A DNA stretch of 64,000 bases from Thermogymnomonas acidicola JCM 13583. GTDB lineage: Archaea; Thermoplasmatota; Thermoplasmata; Thermoplasmatales; Thermoplasmataceae. The position numbers were made by a program, and so were the translations under genes. The notes beneath the pieces are model-generated. The model did not search any database, had not been told where the DNA came from, and saw only the letters and a list, made by a program, of their open reading frames with translations. The stretch's first letter is position 1. Each line of letters starts with the position of its first letter. The DNA is taken from contig NZ_BBCP01000003.1 of assembly GCF_001316105.1 (NCBI RefSeq), positions 62,001 through 126,000 on the forward strand, written 5' to 3'. Positions 26,654 through 33,958 of this stretch are shown piece by piece.

Positions 26654-28124
26654 GGGAGTGCACATAAAGCTCCAGAGGGGGGGCAGATACACTCCCCCCC
26701 TTATCGCCTCGGTCACCATATACGTGGCCCTGGCAGCACTCTCCTACGTCTTCGTCGGCGACCGCTCTCCCAGACCGCTCTCCCCCCCACTGACAACGGT
26801 TGTGGACTGGGCCTCATGGTATTCGGTGATCGTTGCTTTCCCGATACTAACGGCCCTCTCGACCCTGCCTTTCGTGGGGAACCGGAGCGCATACATCATA
26901 GTGCCCGTGGCCCTGATAACCCCCCCTACCTACCTTGTTCTGTACTCCTTCTTCCTCGTTTACGGGCTACCGCCCCTGGGTCTCCTCCTGTTCGTGATAC
27001 CGCTGGCGGCACTGGTGCCCGCCTTCATAATACTCTCCGTTTACGCCGTGCCACTCATAATGGCACTCACAGCGTCCGCCAACGTTGAGAGGTCAGAGGT
27101 TGGAATGAGGAGGATGCCGTCCTGGTTCTACTTCACCATTATAGGGGGGGTGGCAGTGGGCCTCACGATCATAGACATTGTATCGAGGTACCTGGCACTG
27201 GGGGGGAAGGATCCAAGTTCCCTGATCTCGGTGGTATCTGATGTGGGCTGGGCCGCACAGGTCGGCGCCAGGGACCTGATCCACGGCATAAACCCATACG
27301 CTGCCAAGCTACCGCCCTGGGGAGGGCCAGCACCCCCCCTGAGCTACGGCCCATGGAGTTCGTCCTCCTGGCCCCCCCGTTCGCACCCCCCCTGTCCATA
27401 GATGCAGGGGGCGCACGTTGCCTCCTTCTTCTACGCCTTCCTGACAGCGCTTGGCGTGTTCATGACTGTCAGGCTGTACAGGAAGGACCTTGCGCTCCCC
27501 CCCGCGGTGGCCTTCTTCGTAGCACTGCCTGTCACATACTACGTCATAGAGGCCGCGTTCACCCAGCACATAATAGCAGCAGCACTGCTGGCCTGGACGG
27601 TGTACTTTTACCTCTCAGGGAGGACGAGGCTCTCGGGCCTCTTCATGGGCCTTGCTGGCCTGACAATAGGCATACCGTTTGCTCTGGTCATTCCCTTCTT
27701 CTTCGGTGCAGGGAAGAGCGAGAGGCTGCGGCTCCTAGAGGGCTATGTGCCTGTGGTGCTTGCCCTTGCGGGCGGAGTTTTCCTGATGTTCGGGAACCAT
27801 GCACTCAGTTCCATAAACGCCTTCACGGGAGTGATAAACTTCTACGGCCTCTCGCAGTACCTGACGGCCTACGCGAACAGCATCCTGAAGTGGATCCCGA
27901 CGGCAGCGATATTCGTGTGGTTCGTGGCTGCGTCCGTCAAGGTGAGGGCCAGGGAGGAGGCGGTGAAGGTGTCCGCCATATTCACGCTCCTCCTCCCGTT
28001 TGCCGTGGGCTACTTCTACCCGTTCTTCTTCATCTGGCAGGGCCTTCTCCTGATAATATATATGTTCATGAGGATGGAGGTAGGTGAACCTTGGAAATCA
28101 ACATATTCAGCAGGAAGTCAATAA
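26628..28124 (+). CDS. Polytopic membrane protein, possibly GT-C glycosyltransferase
   Basis: About 490 residues with roughly ten to twelve membrane segments. After a first TM pair comes a conserved-looking loop, VGARDLIHGINPYAAKLP, whose NPY pattern is common in archaeal GT-C/DUF2029-type mannosyltransferases, then further hydrophobic segments to YFYPFFFIWQGLLLIIYMFM. Breaks near 27352-27410 (a C lost; 7-C runs and G5) are repaired to join the halves. It overlaps both the GT4 gene and the next gene. A lipid-linked sugar transferase or flippase role is inference. Confidence 0.65.
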
Positions 28125-29455
28125 AGTCGCTCAAGACAAGGATCTTCACTCTCGCCTTCGGCTCAACCGGAAGGGCCGTGGCAACCTTCACAGTGATAGC
28201 GATAGTCGTGACCATGGGTATACTTGGGGGCTCAGGCAAGCTTCTCCAACCTGTGCCGTCAGCCGGCCCGTTCGTCGGTGATGCCACGTACCACGTCATG
28301 GTTACGCCAGCCGCCATACCTGTGGGCCACACTACGACGATAATAGCAAGCGTTGATGCATTCATAGCGAACACAGTCCTGGACGTGGAGGTCACCGTGG
28401 TAGGCCCACACGGCTCAGGCATCCTTGGAATCGAAAATACGACCATAAGTACTGATTCTCACGGTAACGGCTACGTGATGCTTGCCTACCCGGGTTCATT
28501 TAAGCCATCAGCATCCACTAATGCCGTTGGAACCTATTTGGTGTCCGCTACCTTCACATACGGCTACACGACAGCCTACGCGTATTCCCACTTCGTGGTC
28601 TTCAAGAACGCAGTATTCGCCGCCCCGCAGCTCTATATAACTCCAGGTTTTGGCCCGGTTGGCACCACCGTGGATGTCTACGGTTACCACTTCGCCCCCC
28701 CTGACGCTAATATCACCCTATACTATGACGGTATCGCGGTCTCGAATGGTTCAGTCCCAAAGACAAACGCCACTGGCTTTTTCTCCCTCACGTTCACCGT
28801 GCCCACGTCCACGGGCCTCAACAAGGTAACAGCAGTCGACCAGTACAACAACACAGCACCGCGTACTTCGAGGTCCAGCCATCCTCACAGCCAGGGCCGC
28901 TAGAGAGCACAGCCACACAGGCCCTTGTGATCAACGGTTCCGCCATAGCGAACTTCACTCAGACCATTGGAATGGAGGTACTGATCACAGGCTCGAACCT
29001 GAGCAATGGCACGAGCATAGGCATAATAGGCTCCATATACAGCGAGATGCCCCCCCTAAACGTGGTCAAACCTAAGACAAGTGACAGCCTCTTCTACGAC
29101 GTGAAGGTGCTCAACGTGTCTAGCGGCAACGCTACCGTTTCGATCACCGAGAGCTTCGTGAAGACGGAGCACATGAACACCATGGAGTACTGGAACGGGA
29201 CGGCATGGGTCCAGGCCTCCTCAATCGTCGTGGTCAACGACACCATACAGGGAGTGATACCTGTAAAGGAACTCCAGAAGACACCCATAGTCATAGTACA
29301 TAGCACCGCCGTCGCACCTTGTCGTCTACCTGGTCGTGGGCCTTGTTGTTGTGGCGGTTGCCATAATACTGCCACTCATAATACTGAGACGCAGGAGGCT
29401 GCCGCCACAGCCACCGCAGGAGGGTGAACAGAGGGAACAGGCAGGGAACCAGTGA
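28091..29455 (+). CDS. Cell-surface protein with Ig-like domains and C-terminal membrane anchor
   Basis: About 450 residues. An N-terminal membrane segment (AVATFTVIAIVVTMGIL) acts as signal or anchor; extracytoplasmic repeats begin YHVMVTPAAIPVGHTTTI and LYITPGFGPVGTTVDVYGYH, the latter IPT/TIG-like; a C-terminal helix (VVYLVVGLVVVAVAIILPL) is followed by a basic and then Pro/Gln-rich tail. At least nine N-x-S/T sequons suggest heavy N-glycosylation. The start is TTG at 28091 with ggaggt nine bases upstream. Breaks: a C missing near 28861, and one near 29311, needed to reach the anchor. Probably S-layer or adhesin-like; exact role unknown. Confidence 0.7.
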
Positions 29456-29915: not shown

Positions 29916-32900
29916 ATGATGAATCGCAAAGGATGGCTAGCGTTGGCCATAGTGCTGGCGATGGCTCTGTCTGTCGCTGTTCCACTTGGCCTAGGGAGTA
30001 CAAGTGCCGGGACAGATTCCGCCTTACACACACAGCAAGCAGCGAGTGTTGTTTCTCCTTCCGTGCAGGCGCCACCTTCTGTTGCAGCGAATTCTCTGCT
30101 CGCTAAACTGGAAAAGAGCGGCGTTAACCCAAGTATGTCTACCTTCCGAACCTGAACCACGATGAAAAGATGGTCAACGGGGGGGTCGTAACACCCCCCC
30201 TCTACAAGGCCGCGCCTGCGCCCATGGGTATCGGTGACATAGGCGTCATGATGGAGAACGGCCACCTGGTGGCATACAATCTGACGACGCCCAGCATCGC
30301 CGGATCAGCCAGCTTCAGCTCTCTCTACACAGTGAACATGCCCAGCAGTTCCACAACCGGCCTCACAGTGCAGCTGAACGCTGTCATAAAGAACGTGACG
30401 CTGTTCAACGTCACAGGCTATTCCTACTGGACACAGAACGTGATATTCTACAACGCCAGGATACACGAGATGCAGTTTGTCCTGAACATATGGAACTTCT
30501 CCACCCCCACCTTCGCGTTCCCGCCGAACGGCATACTGAGTGGCAGGGGGGGACAGGTCTACTCTGACGAGGTCTACATAACGATCGGGCCCACGATAAC
30601 CATAGCCCCCACCCTTCTCCGTGGAGCTGTACCTGAACTCAACAGTCATCGACAATGAGAGCACAGTGTTCTTCAACTACACCGTGACACACAACGGTGT
30701 GAGCATGTCCGGGTCCTACGATGAGGTCATGTTCAACTCAACCGGCGGCATGGGTGTGATGCCTCCAATGCCCACGCCTGCACCCTACTACCTCATATCC
30801 GGCAACACCATAACGCCAACAGGTTCCTGCTCTACGACGCCGAGATCATGATAGGTGGCCCCCCCGGTGGCGGTTCAACGACCACGGCATACCAGCTGAA
30901 CGGCACAATGAACCTTTACTACATGAACACAACAACGATGTCCTACCAGAGCGTCCCGAGTGCCTATGACTTCGGGACCGACACGGGCGAGACCTCTGAG
31001 GGCGTGAACGTCTACTGGCACGGCACAACTGCCTACCTGGGCGTTGGGCCCTCGCTGCTCTACGGCATGTGGGGTCTCAACGACGCGAGCCTGCACACCT
31101 TCAGTGGGCAGATAACGCCGCCCAACACGTTCATGTTCGTGAACACAGGCAGCACGTTCAACGAGACGTCAGCGGCCTACGTCCCGCTCACTGTCAACGG
31201 AGACTACAGGTTCACAGTGCCGAGCACGGAGATAACAGGCCAGCTCCTCCTCTCAGACTACACCCCCCCGGTGAACTTCACAGTACAGTCGATGACAACA
31301 CAGTCAGTGCAGTTCAGTACACAGCTCACGATGAACATGTCCGCTGGCATATACACGCCACTCATAGCGATGACGAACTCACAGCTGAAGTACATATCGA
31401 TATCCGGTAACGGCACGCTGAGCAACCCGTACGTGCTGTTCAACAACCCGATGTACATGGTGGGTACCACACCGTACACAGTCATCGACCCGATATTCGG
31501 AGAGAGCAATGACTACTTGTTCCCCCCCGTGTTCCCGGGAGTGTTCCTATGGGGCACAACTGACTACGTCGACATGAACATGATGCCTGTAATGCTGCTG
31601 AACTACAGCCTGGTCAATGTACCCATAACTACGCAGATGAACTACCAGTTCTTCATGGCCTCAAACTTCACCCTCTACGACTCGATGGCCAACGGCCTGT
31701 TCCTCGACAGCTTCGTGCCCTTCAGCATATACGGCGAGAACGTCACGCACGCACTCTTTGATTCGAACTACATATACACGAGTGGAGTACTGTTCTACAA
31801 CCCTGACCCGTACGCAAGCGGTGGCCTGTACCTGCTCAACTCCACCGACAACGTCATATGGCACAACGTGTTCCTGCCGTTCTCAGGCCTTGTGGGCCTC
31901 TGGCTGCTCTCCTCCGGCAACCTGATCTACAACAACGGCTTCCTGTCATACTTCACCGCAATTAACCCCCCCGCACCCTACATGAACACCTGGAACGTGA
32001 CGCTAGAGCCCGCATCGGCAGTGATGGTGTTCAACGGCTACACCCTCACCGGAACATAGACGGGTATGGCCTCCAGGGAGGCAACTGGTGGTGGAACTAC
32101 AACGGGACTGTGCCGTACAACGACAATGGCCTGATAGCAATAGGCGGTGACTACTACCCGACGAACGCGATGCTCGAACTCTCCACGCTGAACGCCTTCC
32201 CTGGCCAGCTGATCCAGTTCACAGAGTGGACGAACATATCCATGAACGCTCCGCAGGCGAGGTTCCTCAACGCCATAGTGCTGTTCAACGGCGTCCCGCT
32301 CACCACAGCCCTGGTCACGGTGCACGGCAACGAGGCCATGGGGGGGTACATAACCATGCCTAACGACCAGCCAGGGACCACGTTCAACGTCTCCGTGATC
32401 CTCGAGTACGGGCCGCAGATGTACGCGCTTCCGACCTTCATACTGCACCTCACCCTCGTCCCAGGCAACGGAGCCCTCATAACGTCAATGAACGGCAGCG
32501 ACTCGGTTGAGATCAGCACACTGCTCGGACAGGTCAACGCGACGCTGAGCGAGCTGAACGCCAGGATCATAGGCCTATCGGAGCAGGAAAACGGCACCTA
32601 CGTGCTCCTCCAGACTGACTTCGGCATAATGAAGGCAGACTACACTGCGCTGCAGGCAAGGATATCTGGCATAGAGGGCAACATAGCCACCATACAGACT
32701 GCACTGGGCAACACCACAGCAACCCTGTCGCAGCTCTCGGCCAGCATACAGAGCATAAATGGCCAGGTGGTGACGCTGCAGACAGCCCTCGGGCAGGTGC
32801 AGACTGGCCTGGCTTCCCTGAACACCCAGATAACTGCAGTGAGCAACAATGAGGTGCTGATAAAGACGAGCATAGGCACCATGATGGGTCAGATATCGAG

Positions 32901-33087
32901 CATAAACGGGCAGCTCGCGGAGATCCACACGCAGTATGGAAACATAACTGCGGAGCTGAACCAGATCAGTGGCTACCACGCACCCGCTGGCTCCATAGTG
33001 CCTCTCGGCTACCTGGTGATAGGCCTGATAGCAGTGGTCGCTGTTGGTGTCGGTGCAAGCCTGGCTGTGAGGGTCAGGAAGAGGTGA
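29916..33087 (+). CDS. Membrane-anchored thermopsin (peptidase A5) with coiled-coil stalk
   Basis: About 1,055 residues, three times a minimal thermopsin. Order: signal peptide (GWLALAIVLAMALSVAVPLG); thermopsin domain with APAPMGIGDIGV, VLNIWNFSTPTF, MIGGP.GGGSTTT and DFGTDTGETSEGVN; a region near residues 560-640 with beta-helix-like DSNYIYTSG and NVIWHNVFLP; a second beta domain; a long coiled coil built of heptads around TLSQLSASIQSINGQVVTL; a C-terminal membrane helix (GYLVIGLIAVVAVGVGASLA) with a basic tail. Thermopsins are acid proteases active at low pH. Sequons are dense. Repairs: a C near 30134, C5 near 30606, one base near 30821, and a G near 32051. The 7-C run at 30859-30865 turns GGPGGGS into GGPPGGGS. 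Confidence 0.88.
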
Positions 33088-33188: not shown

Positions 33189-33958
33189 GTGCACTCGATC
33201 TCAGTCGTAGTACCGGTGCTCAACGAAAGGGAGAACGTCTGCCCCCCCTCCTCAGGAGGATCGATTCGGTTGCGAAAGACGCCCCCCCTGTGGTCGAGGT
33301 CATCTTCGTGGACGGCGGAAGCACAGACGGGACCATTGAGGAAATAGAGAGGCAGAGCGGGAGGCACCTGTTCTCCGTGCGTACCGTAATGCAGAGGGCC
33401 AGGCTCGGCCTGGTGCACGCAGAGCTCCTCGGGGGGGCCAGGGAGGCAAGGGGGGGCGAATATGTCACGATACTCGACGGTGACCTCCAGCACCCGCCTG
33501 AATACATAGTGGATATGTCAAGGTACCTTGGCGCATACGATGTGATAGTTGCCTCAAGGTACGTGAAGGGAGGTGGCGCGAGGAGGGACCCGGTAAGGGG
33601 GGGCATAATAAGCCGCACAGCTGTGCTAATATGCCACACCATCCTGCCCGTGTCGAAGAGAATACGAGACCCGATATCCGGGTTCTTCACAGCAAGGAGG
33701 GAAATGTTCGCCGGCATAGACTTCATGCCCGGTTCATATGAAACCCTCCTGTACGTTCTGGCCTACAACCCACTGTGTACGGTTAAGGAAGTGCCGTACA
33801 CATTCGTGGAGAGGGAGAGGGGGGGCTCTTCGAAGATCGTGGGCAGGGGGGGGCTGAGCTTCGTGAAGAACTACATGGGGGGGCAGAACCTGTTCCTCAG
33901 GAAGGCAAGCAGGAGGATAGCGACCGCAGTCCGGCAGCCTGACATTGCCCTGAAGTAA
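33189..33958 (+). CDS. GT2-family polyprenyl-phosphate sugar transferase (DPM1-like)
   Basis: About 255 residues. ISVVVPVLNERENV, FVDGGSTDGT, LDGDLQHPPEYI and a PISGFFTARREMF-type stretch are the pattern of dolichol-phosphate mannosyl/glucosyltransferases, which load a sugar onto a lipid carrier at the inner membrane face. The start is GTG at 33189 after an AT-rich promoter. The 7-C run at 33242-33248 (should be 5) splits the frame. It lies between the thermopsin and a membrane-protein gene, supporting a surface-glycosylation role. Confidence 0.85.

Follow-up and report, generated by a model that had tools for sequence, protein, structure and literature searches.

The 64,000-nucleotide stretch of the Thermogymnomonas acidicola genome analysed here (the window) holds a gene for a stalked protein of the thermopsin family at 29916-33087 on the forward strand. 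Its first methionine codon lies at 29916 and its stop codon at 33085-33087, in agreement with the preliminary description. No single open frame covers the gene; instead, five pieces alternate over three frames and are separated by four frame breaks. Piece A (29916-30155) encodes an N-terminal hydrophobic, signal-like segment, recognized by inspection, and the start of a pro-region, and has no Pfam match. Piece B (30146-30655) encodes the first half of the thermopsin catalytic domain (Pfam PF05317, 2.9e-30, profile positions 7-135 of 256), with Q-L-N, W-T-Q-N and N-I-W-N motifs that are conserved in the alignment, and piece C (30636-30839) encodes the middle of this domain with a G-S-Y-D motif (blastp, 59% over 63 aa against the intact thermopsin of genome G012). 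Piece D (30836-32056) begins with the end of the catalytic domain and its D-A-E and D-T-G-E-T motifs (30836-31006; PF05317, 2.2e-13, profile positions 203-256) and continues as a beta-helix-type region (31007-32056), for which the supporting model, that of an intact relative, resembles beta-helix enzymes at about residues 431-735; piece D is 42% identical to an intact thermopsin of genome G043 over 444 aligned columns. Finally, piece E (32050-33084) contains the conserved end motif of beta-helix thermopsins, GGNWWWNYNGT...GGDYYP (32077-32163; 79% over 29 aa against intact thermopsins), a beta domain common to S-layer-like stalk proteins (32191-32400), a coiled-coil stalk of 156 residues with 28-residue repeats (32503-32970) and a transmembrane helix followed by a basic tail (33007-33075), the latter seen in the sequence and in an AlphaFold2 model. 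All of these features lie on the forward strand. In total, the pieces predict one protein consisting of a signal segment, a thermopsin (family A5) domain, a beta-helix, a small beta domain, a coiled-coil helix and a C-terminal transmembrane segment.

Pieces B, C, D and E tile the intact G012 thermopsin in order (B at 83-232, C at 243-303, D at 325-721 and the motif of E at about 728). Given that intact relatives run through the breaks and that housekeeping genes of the window are broken as well, the frame breaks look like assembly errors rather than decay: the match to PGK covers positions 1-317 of 379, a SufB-type ORF ends at profile position 103 of 232 and the GDP-mannose dehydratase gene is split. 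For the same reason we reject a pseudogene. Frame breaks split or truncate many genes across the whole window (1-64000), among them genes for ATP synthase, SUF and glycolysis, and the assembly, with a genome completeness score of 50.5% at 1.74 Mb, seems to be rich in small indel errors.

The break between pieces D and E precedes the conserved end motif, and from this motif onwards the beta domain, the stalk and the transmembrane helix share one open frame, with nine residues between end motif and beta domain. Frame repair therefore does not split off the stalk, and the outcome that the preliminary description had named as fatal to its proposal, a gene that resolves into two proteins, did not materialize. 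Two separate genes are ruled out because there is no room for a start and a signal peptide between end motif and beta domain, and a plain secreted thermopsin is ruled out because the stalk and transmembrane helix lie in the end motif's own frame. The four breaks within one gene could nevertheless reflect real decay, or a thermopsin and a stalk could have been wrongly joined, and the fusion was not found in a second genome among 400 sampled evenly from the larger class, with at most five candidates scored in each. We consider this very improbable, given that PGK, the SufB-type ORF and the GDP-mannose dehydratase gene are broken in the same way, that the junction coincides with the border between two domains and lies within a single open frame and that the GC content is 0.56-0.60 across the motif, the beta domain and the stalk (GC3 0.76, 0.88 and 0.75, respectively). 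Two loci of the same genome have GC contents of 0.56-0.60 and the window has 0.562, while no locus examined from 44 other genomes exceeds 0.50; Thermogymnomonas is likewise listed with 56% GC, the other named genera having 34-46% (PMC11349054). We conclude that the gene is a real domain fusion and a variant of the known membrane-tethered thermopsins, as represented by one assembly of a single genome.

Membership of the head in family A5 is supported by the Pfam thermopsin scores of 106.1 bits for piece B and 50.8 bits for the start of piece D, the curated cut-off being 25, so that the thermopsin domain recognized by the first reading is found and its beta-helix appears as a weak NosD match in piece D; piece E yields generic coiled-coil matches only. 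Using the residue numbering of the Ferroplasma acidarmanus protein, the conserved family residues Q147, N149, Q168, N185 and N188 are kept in piece B and D299, E301 and E347 in piece D, and D262 reads as D in the Y-D of piece C in the blastp alignment. In the catalytic-domain tree the protein falls inside a 64-row clade (100/100) and it carries the end motif, which places it among the beta-helix thermopsins; a sister within this clade was not singled out by the tree. In most members of the class with the end motif the chain stops about 23-65 residues past the motif core, and there is neither a transmembrane helix nor a stalk.

For comparison, a search within the order covered 52 genomes, among them that of T. 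acidicola, and found a thermopsin in 39. The comparison set consists of 97 intact ORFs from other genomes; ten rows were set aside, namely six from T. acidicola itself, two fragments from one split gene of G066 and two fragments from one broken gene of G045 (C7). The equivalent of Q147 is Gln in all 97 and that of E347 is Glu in 91, with gaps in the remaining six, while E301 is Glu in 88, D262 is Asp in 96 and D299 is Asp in 95. Judging from their motifs, Q147 and E347 appear to be the Gln109 and Glu305 described as conserved by Rawlings (2013), who thought a glutamic type unlikely given the inhibition by pepstatin (PMC3842238); SsMTP-1 has been called pepstatin-insensitive (PMC3958906). In the literature that we searched, only PMC3842238 treats thermopsin together with glutamic peptidase, eqolisin or neprosin. 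The AlphaFold2 model of the F. acidarmanus thermopsin (L180:3865-6156, forward strand; 21 rows, mean pLDDT 75.7) resembles glutamic peptidases over residues 92-375, with Z-scores of 14.4 for HC7, 10.8 for scytalidoglutamic peptidase (187 residues, 3.9 A) and about 9 for neprosin, and HC7 also heads the Foldseek ranking (3.4e-06; the TM-score for the entire model is low, 0.17). The Glu200Ala in the title of HC7 leads us to infer that it is a glutamic peptidase. Sugar hydrolases are also among the structure matches listed, beta-sandwich folds being common; the absence of pepsin from the 50 structure matches listed excludes nothing, and a search with thermopsin against PDB sequences gave one weak match only (0.02). 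The likeness of the A5 model to the glutamic peptidases eqolisin, neprosin and HC7, for which the equivalent in the window is 30146-31006 and for which eqolisin was compared at the level of the fold rather than residue by residue, is a lead that makes the catalytic type of thermopsin testable by mutating named residues.

The C-terminal part of the protein is predicted to be a continuous stalk. Using a COILS-type scoring matrix, the coiled-coil probability exceeds 0.5 over 82 residues, a length reached by none of 1000 shuffles of the 170-residue stalk segment, and the peak score is reached by 11 of the 1000. AlphaFold2, run on piece E alone as a single sequence, models residues 152-307 as one uninterrupted helix (pLDDT about 90 for 200-300) and residues 320-342, at the transmembrane segment, as a second helix; the beta part of this model is unreliable (pLDDT under 50). 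One heptad register runs through the 156-residue helix with I, L, V or M at 73% of 45 core positions, and as a straight helix the 156 residues would measure about 23 nm. The stalk motif recurs at spacings of 28, 28, 28 and 21 residues, with one further pattern match in between. Among 18 stalk proteins and relatives, the same spacing is present in seven others (one in G060 and two each in G045, G038 and G042), and others have more or fewer repeat units. The layout proposed in the preliminary description, i.e. a thermopsin domain, a beta-rich middle, a continuous stalk and a C-terminal transmembrane helix, is thus borne out by Pfam, by the coiled-coil score and by structure prediction.

Piece E has two sets of sequence matches: its first ~45 residues match thermopsins and its last ~300 match large proteins. 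With most of the thermopsin part removed, it has matches in 26 of the order's 117 genomes, counting that of T. acidicola. The matching proteins are mostly long, beta-rich by eye and end in the same C-terminal module. A profile of the beta domain from which the window protein and the coil had been removed, its alignment having originally been made with the window row in place, recognizes the window protein at 2e-11, compared with 0.33 for the best of the 97 thermopsins and 0.063 for the best of 500 shuffles. Because the beta domain and the 28-28-28-21 spacing provide two independent grounds, sequence evidence identifies the last ~300 residues as a homologue of the stalk module found in large S-layer-like proteins, and the protein has all three parts of the Thermoplasmatales stalk module (beta domain, coiled coil of 28-residue repeats and transmembrane helix).

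No other thermopsin head was seen among 59 other stalk ORF rows, 14 of which are open at the start so that their heads are out of sight, and one of the 59 bears an acid protease of the unrelated S53 type. This intact S53-type protease (Pfam Pro-kuma_activ), from another family of the order, sits on the same type of stalk with a transmembrane helix (L141:255-2609, forward strand). Large Ig-like stalk proteins (L138, L146 and L148) share the C-terminal module but have about 1200-1400 aa and other heads, with no thermopsin in the 59 rows. Two proteins of about 590-670 aa (L153:2741-4756 and L021:361-2118, both on the forward strand) have a SlaB-like layout of a signal-like N-terminus, a beta domain, a coiled coil of 28-residue repeats and a transmembrane helix. 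The named relatives are Ferroplasma, Acidiplasma and Thermoplasma, and none of 29 named loci contains the stalk.

The combination of protease and stalk had been described as unusual compared with secreted thermopsins, and this holds for one of its two elements only. By a crude rule (mean hydropathy of 1.6 over 19 residues within the last 60), 63 of the 97 thermopsins end in a predicted transmembrane helix, 18 have the end motif without such a helix, six are fused to S53 and ten have neither. A coiled coil after the protease domain is present in none of the 97, with the Sulfolobales thermopsins known to us from papers only, and is therefore ruled out as a common thermopsin feature. Thus, tethering of thermopsins is ordinary and an S-layer-type stalk is unusual in those surveyed. 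The literature searched contains no paper that joins thermopsin, coiled and transmembrane, and none that joins sedolisin and thermopsin. The six S53 fusions (G005, G010, G023, G073, G074 and G075) combine thermopsin, beta-helix and S53 in one polypeptide and form one clade (100/99), and a broken copy of the same fusion lies elsewhere in the T. acidicola genome (L136, contig C7).

Among the known systems, the comparison with SlaB drawn in the preliminary description is apt: a sequence search of the PDB with piece E ranks SlaB (8qox_B, E 0.001) first, over the coiled coil and transmembrane helix, and trimeric viral fibres score nearly as high. Foldseek, given the single-sequence model of piece E, returned no hits at E up to 0.001. 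SlaB (8QOX) consists of beta-sandwiches, a C-terminal helix of 132 residues and a transmembrane segment (PMC10903991), and the two proteins share beta domains followed by a long C-terminal helix that forms a coiled coil and then a membrane helix (PMC10903991, PMC6911244). SlaB differs in having beta-sandwich domains in place of an enzyme head, where the window protein has a protease and a beta-helix, and the match is marginal and confined to coil and membrane helix. A further known system is Saci1846, a thermopsin-family protein with a C-terminal transmembrane helix that helps SlaB to anchor SlaA in Sulfolobus acidocaldarius (PMC12207459). M164_1049 helps SlaA anchoring in S. islandicus, with published deletion phenotypes (PMC6712394), and its relative SSO1175 (SsMTP-1) was purified as an active acid protease (PMC3958906). 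The window protein shares with these the thermopsin family, a signal sequence, the C-terminal transmembrane helix and a predicted surface location; they differ in having Ig-like or repeat domains after the protease, with no coiled coil mentioned in the sections of these papers drawn on here, and in belonging to a different phylum, the host here being probably wall-less. SsMTP-type thermopsins, although called membrane-bound, are also recovered from the medium (PMC3958906), and by analogy tethering may be temporary. The secreted beta-helix thermopsins, such as the 764-aa protein of F. acidarmanus (L180), share the catalytic domain, beta-helix and end motif, but most lack a transmembrane helix or stalk. 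In Staphylothermus marinus, tetrabrachion displays the STABLE protease on a coiled-coil stalk at the archaeal surface (PMC5744192); there, however, the protease is a separate, subtilisin-type subunit and the stalk a right-handed tetramer of 11-residue repeats, whereas the stalk in the window is an unbroken series of heptads, which rules out a tetrabrachion-type stalk.

Combining these data, we suggest that a beta-helix thermopsin of a class that often ends just after the GGDY-x-P motif gained a C-terminal module of beta domain, 28-residue-repeat coil and transmembrane helix. The signal segment would export the protease, the transmembrane helix would keep it in the membrane, and the helix would hold the head roughly 20-25 nm off the surface, probably as a trimer, where at acid pH it would cleave proteins, either for the uptake of peptides or in surface processing. 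Building on the domain order, the homology of both halves and the conserved catalytic-domain residues, all read from the sequence, and on the continuous helix of the model, we consider it probable that the protein is a membrane-tethered acid endopeptidase on an S-layer-type stalk, with catalytic activity, expression, trimerization, display height and a nutritional role all presumed. The S53 protease on the same type of stalk argues that the thermopsin head is there as a protease. Against this explanation counts that coiled-coil sequence is low in information, and against a nutritional role that the nearest genes concern glycans and not the uptake of peptides. Upstream lies a gene for a surface protein with a C-terminal transmembrane helix and an RRRR tail (28091-29455, forward strand; broken frames, no Pfam match) and downstream a piece of a family 2 glycosyltransferase (33290-33958, forward strand; PF00535, 5.3e-13). 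The distances to an amino-acid permease fragment downstream (6.6 kb) and to an S66 peptidase upstream (8 kb) make the earlier idea that the enzyme feeds a permease and peptidases nearby a weak one. The upstream surface-protein gene belongs to a series of genes on one strand that also includes those for glycosyltransferase and GDP-mannose dehydratase.

Alternatively, the head could bind a surface lattice and the stalk hold that lattice off the membrane, much as Saci1846 and M164_1049 assist SlaB, proteolysis being secondary or lost. Such an anchor has its precedent, with deletion phenotypes, in the Sulfolobales (PMC12207459, PMC6712394); the stalk module is common to S-layer-like proteins and SlaB-like in layout; and in genus g21 thermopsin genes lie near genes for large stalk proteins (L151, L138 and L058), in the case of L151 convergently and about 290 bases apart. 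However, two S-layer-like queries retrieved no gene but this one from the genome, in which no further stalk or S-layer-like protein was found, the genus is likely wall-less, being listed without cell wall or S-layer (PMC11349054), and the conserved catalytic-domain residues are kept. Given the first two of these points, we favor a stalked surface protease over an S-layer anchor, which we regard as unlikely, and the suggestion that the protein is part of the cell coat loses ground relative to that of a surface enzyme. Less likely still is that the enzyme acts in self-processing or defence, cutting surface proteins, pili or competitors instead of supplying food. The one-strand run of glycan and surface-protein genes would fit this, as would the proposal that STABLE protease processes its own surface protein (PMC5744192), but the acidic proteases of Sulfolobus solfataricus are made in peptide-rich media, which fits feeding (PMC3958906).

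A bolder version of the stalked surface protease, possible but doubtful at present, is that three thermopsin heads share one trimeric coiled coil of 23 nm in a wall-less archaeon, that S53 was mounted independently in another lineage, making the stalk a portable display module, and that the head is glutamic with an eqolisin-like fold and a Gln/Glu pair. The gene joins in one polypeptide the acid proteases of archaea and the S-layer stalk, which were known apart, and suggests that enzymes and coat-like proteins exchange stalk modules, also in cells that have no S-layer; as such, the stalked thermopsin is a concrete test case for what membrane-tethered thermopsins do. In a tree of 122 proteins Oxyplasma is reported to be the closest of the named organisms to Thermogymnomonas, and its cells are described as speckled with globular surface structures of 10-20 nm (PMC11349054), for which stalked surface proteins might be one explanation.
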